NCBI GenBank assembly: GCA_944326555.1
Contig: CALVEK010000010.1
Coordinates: 1-64,000 of the forward strand
Source of the DNA: Candidatus Gastranaerophilales bacterium
Lineage (GTDB): Bacteria; Cyanobacteriota; Vampirovibrionia; Gastranaerophilales; Gastranaerophilaceae
DNA: 64,000 nucleotides
Direction of reading: 5' to 3'
Shown here: positions 12,255 to 19,497 of the stretch, piece by piece
How positions within the stretch are numbered: position 1 is the stretch's first letter
Layout of the letters: each line of letters starts with the position of its first letter
Notes under the pieces: model-generated
Told to the model about the DNA's origin: nothing
Databases searched by the model: none
Seen by the model: only the letters and a program-made list of their open reading frames with translations
Position numbers and translations under genes: made by a program

Positions 12255-12911
12255 ATGAGTACGTTTTCCAAAAGAGATGCAAAAATATACAACAAGTTCA
12301 GAACATTTTTTCAATGGCTTGCGTGTAATGTTTTCTTTGGTACATACATAAAATTGATGTATGACTATAAAGTAGAGGGCAAAGAAAATATTCCTGAAGA
12401 AGACAGATTCATAGTTGCAGCAAACCATATATCCGGAAGAGACCCATTTCTTTTGCCTTTTGCACTCGATTTACCTATTGCATTTATGGCTAAAGAAGAA
12501 CTTTTTGATAAATTTTTCTCAAGGACATTAATGGATTATTGCGGAGCATTTGCAGTAAGAAGAGATAAAGTTGAAGTCTCTACAATCAAAACCGCTTTAA
12601 ACATAAAAAATACAAAATGGATGCTGGGACTTTTCCCGCAAGGAACAAGAGATTCCAGTAACAGAGTTGAAAAAATTACCAAAGGTTTTGCATCATTTGC
12701 TAAAGCAACAAAAACAGGCATATTACCTGTTGCCATAATCGGCTCTGATGAAAAACCAAAATGGCCTTTTTCAAACAAACTTACAGTAAAAATAGGAAAA
12801 CTTATACCTTACAGTGATGATATAGAAGACATGATGCAGCAATGGTGCGATGTTATATCTGACTTAACTGGTAAGGAGTATGTATTAGATCAGGAAGTAA
12901 AAGAAAGTTAA
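12255..12911 (+). CDS. 1-acyl-sn-glycerol-3-phosphate acyltransferase-like protein (first of two)
   Basis: PlsC-type enzymes add the second acyl chain to lysophosphatidic acid at the cytoplasmic membrane. The 218-residue protein shows the acyltransferase motif I as NHISGRD (HxxxxD, about residues 57-63), motif II around GAFAVRRD, motif III as FPQGTR (about residues 126-131) and a motif IV region LPVAIIGSDE. AGGGAT lies upstream of the start. A paralogue follows 29 bases after its stop, so they are likely co-transcribed. Which one makes phosphatidic acid, and whether the other uses another acyl acceptor, cannot be told. Confidence 0.88.
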   Translation: MSTFSKRDAKIYNKFRTFFQWLACNVFFGTYIKLMYDYKVEGKENIPEEDRFIVAANHISGRDPFLLPFALDLPIAFMAKEELFDKFFSRTLMDYCGAFAVRRDKVEVSTIKTALNIKNTKWMLGLFPQGTRDSSNRVEKITKGFASFAKATKTGILPVAIIGSDEKPKWPFSNKLTVKIGKLIPYSDDIEDMMQQWCDVISDLTGKEYVLDQEVKES

Positions 12912-12940: not shown

Positions 12941-13633
12941 ATGACAAGAAATTACGCAAGAAGATATGCAAATGAATTTAATATTTTCAGAGCCATTTAT
13001 CAAGCGCTTTGGTGTTTATTCGTAGCCATACCTGTTTTTTGGTTCTTCTACAAATTTGAAATAAAGGGAAGAGAAAACATCCCCAAAGACGGGAAATTTA
13101 TATGCGCAGCAAACCATGTATCACACCTTGATCCATTTTTGGTTTCTGTTGCAATAAGAAAACCTATTGCATATATGGCCAAAAAAGAGCTTTTTGAAAA
13201 CAGTTCATTTTTCACACTAAATATGGATTGGCTTGGAGCATTTGCAGTTAATAGAGAAAAACTGGAAGTATCAACAATAAAAACCGTAAAAGAATTATAC
13301 AAAACGAAATGGTTGCTCGGCATTTTCCCACAGGGGGGAATTCGTAAAAATCACACAATAGAAAAAATTAATAAGGGTTTTGCCGTTATTGCAAAAGCCG
13401 CAAAGTGGGACATCTTACCGATATCTATTACCGGATGCGAAAAATACAATTGGATACCATTTGGAGCAAAAGTCATAGTACAAATTGGCAAGCCAATTTC
13501 TTACAAAATGTCTCAAGATAAAATTATTGAAAACTGGGGAAAACAAGTTGCTACAATGAGCAACTACCAATACATAGAAACAGAGACAGAAAACGCAGAG
13601 ACACAAGAGCAACAAGAATTTGCAGATGTTTAG
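12941..13633 (+). CDS. 1-acyl-sn-glycerol-3-phosphate acyltransferase-like protein (second of two)
   Basis: It is a 230-residue paralogue of the previous protein. Motif I is NHVSHLD, motif II WLGAFAVNREK and motif IV ILPISITGCEK. Motif III, normally EGTR and FPQGTR in the neighbour, reads FPQGGIRKN here, so one residue is inserted and the Thr is lost before the Arg that contacts substrate phosphate. The N-terminus has a hydrophobic segment (YQALWCLFVAIPVFWFFY, residues 18-35) and the C-terminus a Glu/Gln-rich tail. The altered motif suggests a different acceptor or weak activity; this is inference. Confidence 0.85.
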   Translation: MTRNYARRYANEFNIFRAIYQALWCLFVAIPVFWFFYKFEIKGRENIPKDGKFICAANHVSHLDPFLVSVAIRKPIAYMAKKELFENSSFFTLNMDWLGAFAVNREKLEVSTIKTVKELYKTKWLLGIFPQGGIRKNHTIEKINKGFAVIAKAAKWDILPISITGCEKYNWIPFGAKVIVQIGKPISYKMSQDKIIENWGKQVATMSNYQYIETETENAETQEQQEFADV

Positions 13634-13855
13634 CTCTAATAACTTCGTTTAAATATCATTGATCTTTTGTTAAGTTTTGTAAACATTAAAAAGTGTACAA
13701 AATACAACTTTTTATTGGAAATTTAATAGAAAATTTTTAAAATTTTGCAAAAAACCAAGTGATTTTGCAAAATAATCACGAAAAAACAACAAAAAAACAA
13801 AAAAATAACCCGTTTTTCACGAATTATTGTTCATTACTACAAAACTAGTAAGGTA
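13634..13855. other. AT-rich gap before the AAA+ leader, no gene seen
   Basis: This A/T-rich stretch between the second acyltransferase and the leader promoter holds no convincing open frame or strong terminator. A direct near-repeat of GATTTTGCAAAA-like bases (13731-13772) is the only pattern noticed. Confidence 0.5.
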
Positions 13856-13884
13856 TTGACGAAAATAGAAACATAGTGTAGTTT
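13856..13884 (+). promoter_or_regulatory. Probable promoter of the AAA+ leader
   Basis: TTGACG (13856-13861), a 17-bp spacer and TAGTTT (13879-13884). The -10 is weak in its middle but keeps TA....T. A start near 13891 would place the AAGGA at 13913 about 22 bases into the transcript. Confidence 0.45.
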
Positions 13885-13925
13885 AGATATATCAAATACA
13901 AACGTAGTAGAAAAGGATAAATTCG

Positions 13926-14075
13926 TTGACCATAAAAATGCTATCCGAATTGTTATTGTTGAATAATATCTTTATTTTTATTGGAATGCGTGCCGTAATT
14001 ACACATTATTCCAAGTCATTTCATGTCTTACGCCATAGCAACCTAAGACTCGGGTACGCAATAGCAAGTTTTTAA
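13926..14075 (+). CDS. Putative 49-codon leader ORF upstream of AAA+ operon
   Basis: A TTG at 13926 lies eight bases after AAGGA (13913-13917) and opens a 49-codon frame ending in TAA at 14073-14075. An internal ATG is at 13938. The predicted peptide starts MTIKMLSELLLLNN, has a hydrophobic first half (IFIFIG) and a basic second half with three His and three Arg (THYSKSFHVLRH, NLRLGYAIASF). The second half is richer in G and C than its surroundings and overlaps RNA pairings, so the segment may be under RNA rather than protein constraint. Its position before a terminator fits a translated attenuator leader. No homologue was recognised. Confidence 0.4.
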   Translation: MTIKMLSELLLLNNIFIFIGMRAVITHYSKSFHVLRHSNLRLGYAIASF

Positions 14076-14143
14076 ATGTAAAAAACACACTTTATCTATA
14101 AAAATTGCATCCGCGAGTCTGTTAAAGATAAGCGGTTTTTTTT
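13988..14143 (+). promoter_or_regulatory. Candidate transcription attenuator of the AAA+ operon
   Basis: Three exclusive pairings are visible. (1) GUCUUA (14025-14030) with UAAGAC (14044-14049), enclosed by GCGUGCC (13988-13994) with GGUACGC (14053-14059). (2) AGACUCG (14046-14052) with CGAGUCU (14114-14120), which would use up the terminator's 5' arm. (3) The terminator CCGC-GA-GUCU / AGAU-AA-GCGG (14111-14135) followed by eight U. No good promoter lies between the terminator and the AGGAG of the AAA+ gene, so the operon must be transcribed through it. Confidence 0.55.
14111..14143 (+). terminator. Intrinsic terminator in AAA+ operon leader
   Basis: CCGC (14111-14114) pairs with GCGG (14132-14135), with an inner GUCU/AGAU helix and a 5-base loop, followed by TTTTTTTT. 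It lies 18 bases before the Shine-Dalgarno sequence of the first AAA+ gene. Confidence 0.8.
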
Positions 14144-14174
14144 GAATTAAAAATCAAAACAGGAGTATAATTTA

Positions 14175-15806
14175 ATGACAATCAATGCCATTCAAAGCTA
14201 CAGAACTACAGGTTACACTACATTAAAAAAATCAAAGAACGAAAATTCCACAGCAATTAGTAAAATGTCTGCTAATCTACCTGCAAATAACACTAACCGC
14301 TTGCAACTGGCAGACAGTAACTACGGGGTACTACTTTTAAAACAAACAAATAAACCCGTTTTTAAGGGAATTATAACACCTACAGCACCTGCAATAATAA
14401 CAAAAAACATTCCGCTTGAAGAAAAAATTGCAACAATTTTTGAACACTTTAACCACGGAGATTTACTACTTATCGGTAAAGATTTAAAAACAGTAAAAAA
14501 TGCAATGAAAGAGTCTGTAGACCAAATAAAAAGTGTCATAAAAAAAGTATTATTTATTGAAGATACACAACTGACTAATCCATTGGCATTCTTTAAAAAT
14601 GATAGAGGACAAAAAGAGTTTGTAAACCTTGGAAAAGAAAAAGTATTTCTGTCAGACGGCAAAGGTGCAGGAATGTTTTTTAACCAAGGAGAAAGCATGC
14701 CTGTTGAGATTGGAGATACATTAAGAATCAAGGATACTGTGATTAAAATCAAACTTTCCGCAACACAAGAAAATGCTGCAAAAAAGGGAGAAAAAGGCGA
14801 AACTCTTGAACTATTTAAAAACCTTTATACAAAGGTTATACCAATGCAGAAAAAAGTTGAAAAATCCATTGAAAATGTAAATAGCAAAATTCTTGATGAT
14901 TTGGCATACGAAGAAGGTTCATTCAAAAAGAAACTTTCTCTTTCTGATGTTGGAGGTCAAGATAAAGCAATAACACAACTAAAAAAAGGCATACTACTTC
15001 CGATTAGAAATCCCGAATTTTATAAAGGAAGGGAAATAAATAGAGGATTCATTTTAGAAGGAGCACCTGGGACAGGTAAAACACTTGCTGCAAAAGCTCT
15101 TGCCAACGACACAGGAATGAACTTCATTCAAATAAACGGACCCGAATTAGAAAGTAAATGGGTCGGTGAATCTGAAGCCAATCTAAGAGCATTATTTCAG
15201 CAAGCCAAAGATAACCAACCATCAATAATCCTTTTTGATGAAATAGATGCAATAGCAAAGAAAAGAGGTGGACAAGACGTATATGGAGACAAATTTGTAA
15301 ACCAATTTCTTGCAGAAATGACTCAGTTGTACGATGACGGAGACAACGTATTTATACTTGCTACAACAAACAGAGCAGACTTGCTTGACGATGCCATTGT
15401 AAGATCTAAAAGATTTGGCAAAGTCATTACCTTTGGTCTACCAGAAGATGTAAAGGGAACAAAGCAAATTCTTGATATTCATACAAAAAATAGAACACTG
15501 GCATCTGACTATAATCCGGAAGAAATAGCTCAAAATCTCTTTGATATAAAAGCATCAGGAGCTGATATAGCTCAGATTGTTGAAGATGCCCACGATCAAG
15601 CATTTGAAAGACTCGGGCTTTTTGAAAAAATGGAATTTGGATTGGCAACAAAGGAAGATTTGAACAACCTTAAAATAACAAAATCTGATTTTGAAAAAGC
15701 TATAGAAAACTTTAAAGAACAAAATATGGCACAGAAAAAACAAGCCAAAAACCAAAGAAATCCGATAGGATTCATACAAAAAGTAAAAGCAGAAAAACAA
15801 GGATAA
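14175..15806 (+). CDS. AAA+ ATPase with uncharacterised N-terminal domain (first of pair), 543 aa
   Basis: A single FtsH/Cdc48-type AAA+ module occupies about residues 255-510: LSDVGGQDKAITQLKK entry helix, Walker A GAPGTGKT (about 295-302), pore-type segment SKWVGESE, Walker B IILFDEID (351-358), sensor 1 in ATTNRAD (396-402) and arginine fingers in VRSKRFGK. There is no protease motif, so it is probably an unfoldase or remodeller. Residues 1-250 hold no known domain; NYGVLLL..KPVFKG (50-65), PLEEK (80-84) and GDLLLIGKDLK (95-105) recur in the next protein. The start has AGGAG nine bases upstream. It lies behind an attenuator-like leader, and its paralogue follows 28 bases later. Confidence 0.88.
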   Translation: MTINAIQSYRTTGYTTLKKSKNENSTAISKMSANLPANNTNRLQLADSNYGVLLLKQTNKPVFKGIITPTAPAIITKNIPLEEKIATIFEHFNHGDLLLIGKDLKTVKNAMKESVDQIKSVIKKVLFIEDTQLTNPLAFFKNDRGQKEFVNLGKEKVFLSDGKGAGMFFNQGESMPVEIGDTLRIKDTVIKIKLSATQENAAKKGEKGETLELFKNLYTKVIPMQKKVEKSIENVNSKILDDLAYEEGSFKKKLSLSDVGGQDKAITQLKKGILLPIRNPEFYKGREINRGFILEGAPGTGKTLAAKALANDTGMNFIQINGPELESKWVGESEANLRALFQQAKDNQPSIILFDEIDAIAKKRGGQDVYGDKFVNQFLAEMTQLYDDGDNVFILATTNRADLLDDAIVRSKRFGKVITFGLPEDVKGTKQILDIHTKNRTLASDYNPEEIAQNLFDIKASGADIAQIVEDAHDQAFERLGLFEKMEFGLATKEDLNNLKITKSDFEKAIENFKEQNMAQKKQAKNQRNPIGFIQKVKAEKQG

Positions 15807-15834: not shown

Positions 15835-17397
15835 ATGCAAATTTTGCCGATATCAAATATTAGCCTTAACCCAAAAATTAATAATGAAAAAAGCAAACCA
15901 CAGGAAAAAACACCACCAAATATTCCTGCAACACAGAGTAGCATTAACTTTTTAACAGACAAGAATTATGGAGTATTACTTGTAAACAAAAAAACAACTG
16001 CACCATCTTTTAAGGGTGGTGTCAGCTCTTTGGTTCCACAAATAGTTGGAAAAATACCGCTTGAAGAAAAAGTATCCTGGATAATAAATAATATGCTTTA
16101 TGGTGATATATTACTTGTCGGCAAAAACCTTAAAAAAGCACAAGAACTTTTAAAAGAATCAAGAAATACAATTAAAAGTGTAATTCGAAATATATATTTT
16201 GTTCCTTCAAGCGAACTAAAAGACGGTGCATTATTATTTCAAAGAGCAGAAGATGGCGCCCCATTTGTTACTAACCTTGGCAAAAAGATGGTTAAATTAA
16301 GTATACCACCGCACGTACCGGTAACACCCAAAATAATTCCTTTACAAAAAGGTCAAGGTTGGTATGCTTTGCAAGATTCATCTATTTTTAGAGAAAACTT
16401 TTTGTTAAATATCAATTACCAAACTACTCAAGACTTATCACCATTTACAGAAATGTTTTCGACTAAATACACATTTAAAGATGAAACTAAAGGAGCAATC
16501 GAAGTATTAAACAAAAAAACAATAGAATCACTAATTCCTCAGCAAGAGGAAAAAGGCAGAAGTATCTCTTTTAAAGACGTAGGGGGAATGGACTCTGTAA
16601 TCAAGAGATTAAAAAGAGACATCCTGCATCCTATAAAATACCCTGCAGCACATGAGGGAATTCAAAGCCATGGAGTACTTTTATACGGACCTCCTGGAAC
16701 AGGGAAATCACTGGTTGCAGAAGCTCTTGCAAACGAAACAGGTGCAAATTTCTTTAAACTCAACGGACTTGAACTTTCTTCCAAATGGGTAGGTGAAACC
16801 GAAAAGAACTGGAGAAAGCTGTTTGACGAGGCAAAAGAAAACCAGCCAAGTATTATTTTCTTAGATGAATTTGAAGCCGTAGCAAGAAAAAGAGGCGGAC
16901 AAAATGTATACGCAGATGACACGGTCAATCAAATGCTTACACTGTTGAGTGATATTGAAAAAAACAACGATAAAGTATTTTTAATCACTGCAACTAATAA
17001 CAAGGATTTAATAGACCCAACAGTACTAAGAGCAGGAAGAATCGGTAACCATATATTTGTCGGCCCCCCTGAAAATGCTGAGGGTACAAAACAAATCCTC
17101 GATATCCATACAAAATGCAAACCTATAGACAAAGAGTTTGATAAAATTGCATTTGCAAAAAAACTTTTTGAAGCAAAAGCTACAGGCTCTGATATTGCAG
17201 ATATAACATACAAAGCAAAATTGAACGGATATGAAAGAACAGGAATAACCGAAAAAATGGATAAGGGTACTTTCAAAAACTCAGACCTTAACGACTTCAA
17301 AATAACTGCAGAAGATTTTGAAAAGGCATTTGAAGAATTTATATCAACAAAAAATGCAACTTCAAGAAAACCTGTTGGTTTCAACAAAAACAAATAA
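15835..17397 (+). CDS. AAA+ ATPase with uncharacterised N-terminal domain (second of pair), 520 aa
   Basis: A paralogue of the previous protein with the same layout. Shared N-terminal landmarks are NYGVLLV..APSFKGG (44-62), PLEEK (75-79), GDILLVGKNLK (90-100) and NLGKK. The AAA+ module has FKDVGGMD, Walker A GPPGTGKS (285-292), SKWVGETE, Walker B IIFLDEFE (340-347, Phe-Glu in place of Ile-Asp), sensor 1 in ATNNKD and arginine fingers in LRAGRIG. Residues 155-235 differ from the first paralogue. AAGGAG precedes the ATG. Tandem paralogues suggest a hetero-oligomeric ring, which is inference. Transcription ends at the terminator at 17448. Confidence 0.88.
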   Translation: MQILPISNISLNPKINNEKSKPQEKTPPNIPATQSSINFLTDKNYGVLLVNKKTTAPSFKGGVSSLVPQIVGKIPLEEKVSWIINNMLYGDILLVGKNLKKAQELLKESRNTIKSVIRNIYFVPSSELKDGALLFQRAEDGAPFVTNLGKKMVKLSIPPHVPVTPKIIPLQKGQGWYALQDSSIFRENFLLNINYQTTQDLSPFTEMFSTKYTFKDETKGAIEVLNKKTIESLIPQQEEKGRSISFKDVGGMDSVIKRLKRDILHPIKYPAAHEGIQSHGVLLYGPPGTGKSLVAEALANETGANFFKLNGLELSSKWVGETEKNWRKLFDEAKENQPSIIFLDEFEAVARKRGGQNVYADDTVNQMLTLLSDIEKNNDKVFLITATNNKDLIDPTVLRAGRIGNHIFVGPPENAEGTKQILDIHTKCKPIDKEFDKIAFAKKLFEAKATGSDIADITYKAKLNGYERTGITEKMDKGTFKNSDLNDFKITAEDFEKAFEEFISTKNATSRKPVGFNKNK

Positions 17398-17526: not shown

Positions 17527-19497
17527 ATGAATAACAATCTCTATACATTAACCGAAAAAATTGATAAAGACCTTTTAGAAAATAATTTGTCAGAAACAGA
17601 AAAAGAAGAATTGGCAAAAGAAATCAAAGAATTTCTTCCTAAAAACTCAATTGTTTTAGCTCAAATAAATCCGACATCAGGAGACATAAAAGGAAATGCA
17701 AAAAAGGCTCTAAAATGGATTGAATGGGCCAATCGTCTTGAACTTTCTGCAATTATATTCCCTGAAATGTATTTAATCGGTTATCCTATAGGAGATTTTA
17801 TAGACAGATTCCCTATTATTGTGGAAGAAAATATCGAATGGTTGCAGGCTCTTGCAACCAAAACGACAAAAACAAAAGTTTTAATGGGATTCGTTGAATT
17901 TAATAAAAGCAAGCAAGGCAAAAAATACTATAACTCGATTGCAGTAATGTCTAACGGTAAAATAGAAAAAACAATAAGAAAAACTTTATTGCCAAACTAT
18001 GCTGAATTTAACGATTACAGACACTTTGAACCAGCAAAGACAGATTCAAAAAACAGAATTATTGACATAGCTGACAAAAAAGCCGGAATCATTGTTTGCG
18101 AGGATGGATGGAATGATTTTGACTTTTTTGAAAAAAACTTATATGAAACAGACCCTGTTGAATGTGTTGTAAATGAGCAGCACCCTGATTATCTTATAAA
18201 CTGTTCATCATCGATAACACGTGCAAAAAAAGAACAATTAAAGCACAACATGCTTTCTTTTGCAGCGAAAAAGCATAAAACTCCAATTGTATATGTAAAT
18301 CAAGTCGGCTCAGGAGAATGTGTATCATTTGAGGGTGCAAGCAGAGTATACGATGAAAACGGAAATCTTACATATATGGCACAATCATACGCAGAGCAGT
18401 TTTTTATCGTTGATGTTAATGATAAAGACGGAAAAATAAATCCGCTACCAAAAGGTTTAGAAAAAACACTCACTGAGCAAAAGGCCTTTAGCTTAGACCA
18501 CGAGCCGGATTTGGAAAGGACATACCTTACAATAATTCAATCTATCAAAGACTATTTTAAAAAGACAGGCTTTAAAAGGGCAGTACTTGGGCTTTCAGGA
18601 GGATTGGATTCCACAGTCAGTGCCGTTTTACTTTCAGATGCATTAGGAGCAAAAAACGTTTTCGGCATCAGTATGCCATCTAAAATAACCAGTCAGGAAA
18701 GTAAAAATGATGCCAAAGAGTTGGCTAACAATCTTGGAATAAATTTCACAGAAATACCAATCAAAGAAATGTGTGATACTACAAGAGAAAAGTTTGATAA
18801 CTTATTCTCAACCATAGAAAAAGATTGGGATGTCAGATATAAAGAATCCTTCACAAATGACAACATACAGGCTCGTTCAAGAGGAATGATATTATGGGGT
18901 GTTGCAAATGAATTTCAGGCTTGTCTTCCTATTGCAACATCTGATAAGTCAGAGCTTTATATGGGTTATGCAACAATAAACGGAGATATGTCTGGCGGTT
19001 TTGCACCTCTTGCCGATGTATCTAAAACTAAGCTCTTTGCACTTGCAAGATGGCTAAATAAAAACAGAGAACAAAAAAATGCTATACCGGAATCAATCAT
19101 AGCAAAAAGACCTGGAGCAGAACTTGCAATTAACCCAAAAACAGGAAAGCCTCTCCTTGCTGAAGAAGCTCTTATGCCTTATGAATTTTTGGATGAAGTA
19201 ATATGGAGAGTAGAAAACTTGCAACAAACAATAGGTGATATGTTGCAAGAAGAATTTTTGTATGAAAAACACATGCGAAAAGAGAACTCTCCAGTATCAA
19301 AAGAACAAAAACTTGAATGGCTGCAAAAATTCTTTAGAAGAATGTCAACATCGCTTTACAAGTGGACAATTATGCCACCTTCTCCTATCGTAGATGCACG
19401 TTCAATTAACAAAGCAGAATACAAACAACCGATTATTTCTTCAAAAATCAATTATCACAAAACAAGTTACGAACAAAAGCTAAAAGAACTCGGATAA
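17527..19497 (+). CDS. nadE: Glutamine-dependent NAD+ synthetase
   Basis: The enzyme amidates deamido-NAD+ with ammonia taken from glutamine, the last step of NAD synthesis. The N-terminal CN-hydrolase domain has the triad Glu in IIFPEMY, Lys in RKTLLPNY and Cys in VCEDGWND. The C-terminal synthetase has the PP-loop LGLSGGLDST, then SKITSQESKNDA and ATSDKSELYMGY. I start it at 17527 (AGAGG 11 bases upstream); an ATG three codons earlier is nearly on top of that site. A longer frame reaching to 17413 would begin before the preceding terminator and is rejected. About 656 residues, normal for two-domain NadE. It ends one base before the convergent permease gene. Confidence 0.94.
   Translation: MNNNLYTLTEKIDKDLLENNLSETEKEELAKEIKEFLPKNSIVLAQINPTSGDIKGNAKKALKWIEWANRLELSAIIFPEMYLIGYPIGDFIDRFPIIVEENIEWLQALATKTTKTKVLMGFVEFNKSKQGKKYYNSIAVMSNGKIEKTIRKTLLPNYAEFNDYRHFEPAKTDSKNRIIDIADKKAGIIVCEDGWNDFDFFEKNLYETDPVECVVNEQHPDYLINCSSSITRAKKEQLKHNMLSFAAKKHKTPIVYVNQVGSGECVSFEGASRVYDENGNLTYMAQSYAEQFFIVDVNDKDGKINPLPKGLEKTLTEQKAFSLDHEPDLERTYLTIIQSIKDYFKKTGFKRAVLGLSGGLDSTVSAVLLSDALGAKNVFGISMPSKITSQESKNDAKELANNLGINFTEIPIKEMCDTTREKFDNLFSTIEKDWDVRYKESFTNDNIQARSRGMILWGVANEFQACLPIATSDKSELYMGYATINGDMSGGFAPLADVSKTKLFALARWLNKNREQKNAIPESIIAKRPGAELAINPKTGKPLLAEEALMPYEFLDEVIWRVENLQQTIGDMLQEEFLYEKHMRKENSPVSKEQKLEWLQKFFRRMSTSLYKWTIMPPSPIVDARSINKAEYKQPIISSKINYHKTSYEQKLKELG

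Follow-up and report, generated by a model that had tools for sequence, protein, structure and literature searches.

A conserved RNA gene of Gastranaerophilales and its probable use as a ribosome-controlled attenuator upstream of an AAA+ ATPase gene

Attenuators of the trp/his type combine a leader ORF, alternative antiterminator and terminator structures, and a U-tailed terminator shortly before the controlled gene, and they regulate amino-acid biosynthesis. An attenuator RNA may also act in trans, as reported for rnTrpL of Sinorhizobium meliloti (Melior et al., 2019, cited in PMC7298713). The toiL uORF of Escherichia coli topAI senses translation stress via ribosome stalling at several positions (PMC12121999), and the cyanobacterial sRNA Yfr1 carries an ultraconserved undecanucleotide, ACUCCUCACAC (PMC2190773).

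The locus considered here lies in a window of 64,000 nt (the whole stretch of DNA that was analyzed) from a Gastranaerophilales genome of 2.08 Mb. Gastranaerophilales, neighbors of the cyanobacteria, are common in the gut and uncultured; our literature searches turned up no regulatory RNA described in this group. The full explanation that we favor, and consider fairly probable, is that of a conserved RNA gene combined with a ribosome-controlled attenuator, built by a leader, before an AAA+ gene. The locus shares with the trp/his-type attenuators the leader ORF, the alternative structures, and the U-tailed terminator; it differs in that the presumed regulated gene encodes an AAA+ ATPase, the His codons are scattered, the 1:2 helix is inconsistent, and the terminator is part of an RNA gene found on its own in other genomes. 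The likeness to rnTrpL is in an attenuation-released RNA acting in trans, which has been shown for rnTrpL and is proposed here; by the account in PMC7298713, however, rnTrpL is an attenuator by-product, whereas here the RNA gene occurs without an attenuator in 11 relatives. As in the case of toiL, a short uORF would control a non-biosynthetic gene, but toiL works through the ribosome-binding site and Rho, while here, by anatomy, the target would be an intrinsic terminator (PMC12121999). The short form of the RNA gene, defined below, resembles Yfr1 in being a single-copy short RNA with an unpaired (here, predicted) ultraconserved stretch followed by a U-tailed terminator hairpin (PMC2190773). 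Unlike Yfr1, it has a different sequence and different neighbors, and a 5′ hairpin is clear in only 3 of 11 short forms; the motif ACUCCUCACAC itself is absent from the window's genome, with a stray match in 2 of the 23 genomes of the genus. To our knowledge, a stand-alone RNA gene whose terminator serves as an attenuator in a sister species has not been described.

Coordinates are given in window numbering, with the TACTACA element, promoter, leader, RNA gene, and AAA genes on the forward strand. The neighbors are plsC1 (12255–12911), plsC2 (12941–13633), and a NAD+ synthase gene ending at 19497. The promoter TTGACG-N17-TAGTTT (13856–13884) lies inside the block TTGACGAAA-N7-ACATAGTGTA, and we infer the transcription start from the spacing. 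Upstream of it, a TACTACA element (13835–13841), seen at the same site in most relatives, is a possible operator half-site, and the inverse GTAGTA (about 13904–13909), following the promoter in several long forms, is a possible regulator site. The leader ORF (13926–14075; TTG start, 49 codons, peptide MTIKMLSELLLLNNIFIFIGMRAVITHYSKSFHVLRHSNLRLGYAIASF) is preceded by the Shine–Dalgarno (SD) sequence AAGGA (13913–13917). Region 1a, UGCGUGCC (13987–13994), is predicted to form a helix with GGUACGCA (14053–14060), and region 1b, GUCUUA (14025–14030), with UAAGAC (14044–14049). Region 2, the antiterminator strand AAGACUCGGGUACGCAAU (14045–14062), has region 3 as its partner and matches L112–L116 in position. 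The invariant core of the RNA gene, CACACUUUAUCUAUAAA (14086–14102), is followed by region 3, AUUGCAUCCGCGAGUCU (14104–14120), which comprises the terminator 5′ arm with upstream bases and is the alternative partner of region 2. The intrinsic terminator (14111–14143) consists of the stems CCGC/GCGG (14111–14114 and 14132–14135) and GUCU/AGAU, then U8 (14136–14143). Directly downstream is AAA1, the presumed regulated gene (14175–15806; SD AGGAG at 14161–14165), and its paralogue AAA2 (15835–17397) lies in the same gene run.

The preliminary description, made for 13926–14143, had proposed the leader ORF, the AGACUCG/CGAGUCU antiterminator, and the terminator with the AAA+ gene behind it, and each is indeed found where it was placed. 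The element is nevertheless larger than first described: it begins at the promoter (13856), and an RNA gene at its 3′ side, with a promoter of its own, had been missed. The best-conserved stretch is 14073–14143.

A DNA search with the 271-nt leader against 194 related genomes yields strong matches in about ten genomes of the genus (up to E = 1e-26, 88–93% identity), nearly all within 14073–14143; AAA1 and its homologues are just 35–44% identical. The conserved module is (A/U)UGUnnnAAnCACACUUUAUCUAUAAA-n-UUGCAUCCGC-hairpin-GCGG-U8. A scan of 383 genomes from the order for the 17-nt pattern CACACTTTATCTATAAA shows exactly one copy in each of 16 members of the window's genus (g1, 23 member genomes; the window's genome counted) and one in each of four genomes from a second genus, g46. 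With a covariance model, the diverged members G002, G013, G017, G018, and G020 were also recognized, and the loci of G006 and G016 were identified from position. Core, promoter, and terminator together are present in a single copy in 20–21 of the 23 genus members, plus four g46 members. G005 gives no match, and G008 and G010 carry plsC2 without a recognizable adjoining RNA within the stretch fetched. In a one-genome-per-species collection (about 85,000 species), 15 records contain the core with the terminator arm; 14 of them bear the title Gastranaerophilales and the other "uncultured bacterium". The combination was not found outside the order.

Core identity is 100%, the loci having been chosen by the pattern, and the flanks are 28–33% identical (28–31% from 60 nt on). 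The promoter is recognizable in all 24 loci, all of which align, with the −35 hexamer 99% identical; 15 of 23 genus members have a single copy of the pattern TTGACGAAA-N7-ACA(A/T)AGTGTA, invariably at this locus. Conservation of the terminator in relatives, earlier posed as a check, is borne out: 8 pairs are kept in 95.8% of cells (18 loci), and none of 500 shuffles reaches the covariation score. L110 keeps the core and has an entirely different terminator stem; in group D (L118, L122) the core is lost. In short forms the core is predicted to be mostly unpaired (mean unpaired probability 0.64–0.92). Hence, as in sRNA genes, there are an own promoter and terminator, a conserved and (as predicted) accessible region, and independence of the neighboring genes. 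In agreement with the earlier remark that no riboswitch consensus was recognized, Rfam 15 (riboswitches included) contains no family above the gathering cut-off for the window or for ten relatives' loci, and E ≤ 10 gives only noise.

Several other assignments were considered and rejected. Weak covariance-model matches in other genera (G090, G252, G250) proved on inspection to be only CCGC terminators. Reading the core as an ORF (TTG TTA AAA ACA CAC ...) fails, as the frame is not kept, the window has ATG then TAA, and third positions are invariant; reading it as the spacer of a second promoter (TTGTnn-N17-TAAAAT) fails, as the spacer is invariant and the hexamers variable. The 5′ hairpin is not a universal part of the short RNA, being strong in L100, L104, and L110 only. 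A search for trans targets via the 13-mer complement of the core reveals none that is conserved, with scattered matches at control level. The window's genome yielded no Hfq gene, a result compatible with an sRNA.

The loci are of two forms. In the short form (11 loci, L100–L110), the distance from promoter to core is 47–74 nt, with no ORF; in the long form (13 loci, the window and L111–L122), it is 171–244 nt, with a small ORF. Short forms are followed by nadE (G003, G012, and four g46 genomes), a convergent gene (G009, G022, G004), other genes (G021), or the contig end (G019). Those standing before a convergent gene only (L100, L103, L110) keep the core exactly, and the promoter and terminator remain. 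These copies bear on the alternative that survives best, namely, that the module acts in cis only, the core being a cis element (a pause, a loading site, or an antitermination protein site) and the solo copies relics after gene loss. It agrees with the position of the module, found before the AAA gene in 13 genomes and before nadE in six, 29–200 nt upstream; however, core and promoter are fully kept before a convergent gene alone, with flanks there 28–33% identical, and group D attenuators work, by their anatomy, without the core, so that we consider this alternative unlikely. In the explanation preferred here, the founding unit would be a ~70–95-nt Gastranaerophilales RNA gene with its own promoter, a single-stranded core CACACUUUAUCUAUAAA, and an intrinsic terminator, most likely acting in trans as an sRNA.

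Two further conserved stretches were seen near the module. In L106–L109 (g46), CTTAACCATTCAGACGATTGATCATTCCGACTCTATTTT lies before nadE, after the RNA terminator. The block AAGTGTnnnAAnnACAAT (about 13692–13706 in the window), 100–160 nt 5′ of the promoter, is present in most long forms and in g46 (L106–L109, L112–L122), and resembles an operator dyad or a second promoter.

An AAA gene lies downstream in 13/13 long forms (one truncated, a 76-codon remnant in G018) vs. 0/11 short forms (Fisher p = 4e-7, relatedness ignored). As the leader and the AAA gene flank the core on opposite sides, their joint presence or absence is not simple linkage. The two forms are scattered among each other on a FastTree tree of plsC1 and plsC2, which has weak support at its deep nodes, and hence several joint gains or losses of the leader and AAA segments are to be assumed. 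This co-occurrence is our main evidence, drawn from genome comparison, that the leader serves the AAA gene, while the promoter, core, and terminator would have a separate role. The AAA start codon is 29–66 nt past the U-run across long forms (31 nt in the window), which leaves little space for another promoter. In L111 (G018), which carries the 76-codon remnant, the leader's antiterminator strand shows drift (GCGGTCAGG).

AAA1 has a single AAA+ domain of the Cdc48/PAN/FtsH branch (PF00004, 3.6e-40; TIGR01243, 1.2e-57, below the TIGR01243 cut-off) and an N-terminal region of ~200 aa; AAA2 matches PF00004 at 3.2e-41. The regulated unit had been taken for an AAA+ pair. Two genes are indeed present in the window, but only AAA1 adjoins the terminator, and most relatives carry one AAA gene. 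The single AAA gene of G014 is 73% identical to AAA2 and 36% to AAA1; by sequence, AAA1 looks like a later insertion between the leader and an older AAA gene. The AAA proteins have a common N-terminal 'YG-LLV...FKG' motif (14175–14360 in the window, and homologues).

The architecture of leader ORF, 2:3, and 3:4 before an AAA+ gene is kept in 13 genomes of the genus, with partial compensatory change. In the window, the 2:3 duplex has −18.6 kcal/mol, compared to −11.5 ± 2.7 for shuffles (p = 0.022); in 13/13 leaders it is below the shuffle mean (individual p from <0.002 to 0.39). Own leader–module pairs have −15.4 kcal/mol vs. −12.3 when swapped, and none of 20,000 permutations is as good, related sequences not being independent in this test. 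The partners vary across five lineages: AGACUCG/CGAGUCU (14046–14052/14114–14120) extended by GCAAU/AUUGC (14058–14062/14104–14108) in the window; AGACUUGCG-U-AUGUAA/UUGCAU-C-CGCGAGUCU in L115; GACUUGCG/CGCAAGUC in L116, where the module itself is changed from CGCGAGUC; GCGGUU/AACCGC in group A; and GCGGCUUU/AAAGCCGC in group D. In an alignment of six leaders, 88.9% of cells are paired vs. 12–47% when slid, and two pairs are changed on both sides.

Covariation of the three helices, earlier suggested as a check on homologous leaders, is clear for the terminator and modest for 2:3 (31/500 shuffles reach the score, so that the counts are suggestive, not strong). Of the 1:2 helices, GUCUUA/UAAGAC, proposed earlier, is present in the window but restricted to this species; helices of this class occur in most leaders, though overall not significantly beyond chance (combined p = 0.066), with one compensatory pair in group A. 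The A3 P1 helix has a covariation score reached by 103/500 shuffles. The whole 295-nt leader folds no better than shuffles (z = −0.32), and its 3′ 159 nt mildly better (z = −2.3). The leader thus has the SD-preceded ORF and the putatively exclusive 2:3 and 3:4 pairings that characterize ribosome-dependent attenuators.

The modest covariation agrees with a second alternative, in which only an sRNA is made, the leader ORF and 2:3 are incidental, and leaky read-through or a promoter of its own drives AAA1. A promoter-like match, TTGAAT-N18-TATAAT, does exist at 14142–14171; however, its TATAAT is 3 nt before the ATG, overlapping the SD-to-start region, and such matches are no commoner than in shuffles (5 vs. 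3.5). Given also the joint occurrence of leader and AAA gene, the SD-ORFs at the same place in 12/13 long forms, and the 2:3 pairing in five lineages, we regard this alternative as quite improbable, and retain the combination of an RNA gene with a leader-built attenuator.

Twelve of the 13 long forms have an SD-ORF of 26–49 codons ending beside the core; in the exception, L113, the ORF at this position lacks a clear SD. In all 13, the ORF ends just 5′ of the same terminator module. Dinucleotide shuffles of each leader give p = 0.001–0.016 (0.0025 for the window, ≤0.016 for 11 further relatives). The leader peptides diverge strongly between lineages and form the groups MFWHTLKSEIVHCVRFSKRMFAYAVLI and kin, KHCHHAF...AYVTVEYNC and kin, MILKSHVHSNHNSVRFVKRVVFVRLF, the window's own, and that of L113. 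Between groups, the common part is a C-terminal (G/A)YA-like segment, the codons of which coincide with region 2. The peptides contain 6.3% His and 3.7% Cys (vs. 1.0 and 0.7% in the window's proteins). The His codons are scattered, with no run of one amino acid, and the regulated gene is non-biosynthetic; the His signal is a lead only, and part of the His/Cys enrichment may be forced by the RNA. That the ORF encodes a functional small protein, with the RNA structures as by-products, is very improbable, since, despite the conserved C-terminal (A/G)YA or AYVTV motif and the enrichment, the peptides are otherwise unalignable across lineages, vary from 26 to 49 residues, have no Pfam family match, and have their common codons at region 2.

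We modeled the favored switch co-transcriptionally, with the transcript extending to just 5′ of the terminator 3′ arm and a ribosome masking 29 nt. For most leaders, 2:3 is favored when no ribosome is present or when it is still within the first two thirds of the ORF, and in most species it is usually blocked with the ribosome over the last 8–12 codons. Among the exceptions, L112, L117, and L118 show little 2:3 pairing without translation (0.28–0.30) and need a stall, and L114 and L119 are barely affected by ribosome position. This model replaced an equilibrium one, in which, with the complete hairpin, the 3:4 terminator wins in most species regardless of a stall; hence, a kinetic decision is required, as it is for classical attenuators. 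As 2:3 is predicted, for most species, to form without hindrance in untranslated RNA before the terminator 3′ arm is made, the main brake looks like translation of the last third of the ORF, rather than 1:2.

According to the proposed mechanism, where an AAA+ gene is directly downstream, a leader (SD, short ORF, and antiterminator strand) between promoter and core would make a ribosome-controlled attenuator of the RNA gene's terminator. Once in the last third of the ORF, a ribosome would cover region 2, allowing the terminator to form, so that only the RNA is made. With a stall in the first two thirds, or no ribosome loading, region 2 would pair with the terminator 5′ arm, and RNA polymerase would read through into the AAA+ gene. 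The inducing signal would be translation stress or a shortage of charged tRNA, perhaps that for His.

More tentatively, as a serious possibility, one locus would yield either a trans-acting sRNA or an ATPase mRNA, a free-standing sRNA gene having been reused in place as an attenuator terminator, with the flanking leader and ATPase segments jointly gained or lost several times. For these bacteria, the locus is a defined single-copy RNA family to seek in metatranscriptomes, and suggests a connection between translation stress and an AAA+ ATPase that can be tested. It also offers an evolutionary series for direct comparison of the RNA gene standing alone with an attenuator that has the same core. 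From sequence and modeling, the mini-gene and RNA switch added in some species probably turn on the downstream ATPase gene when protein synthesis stalls.
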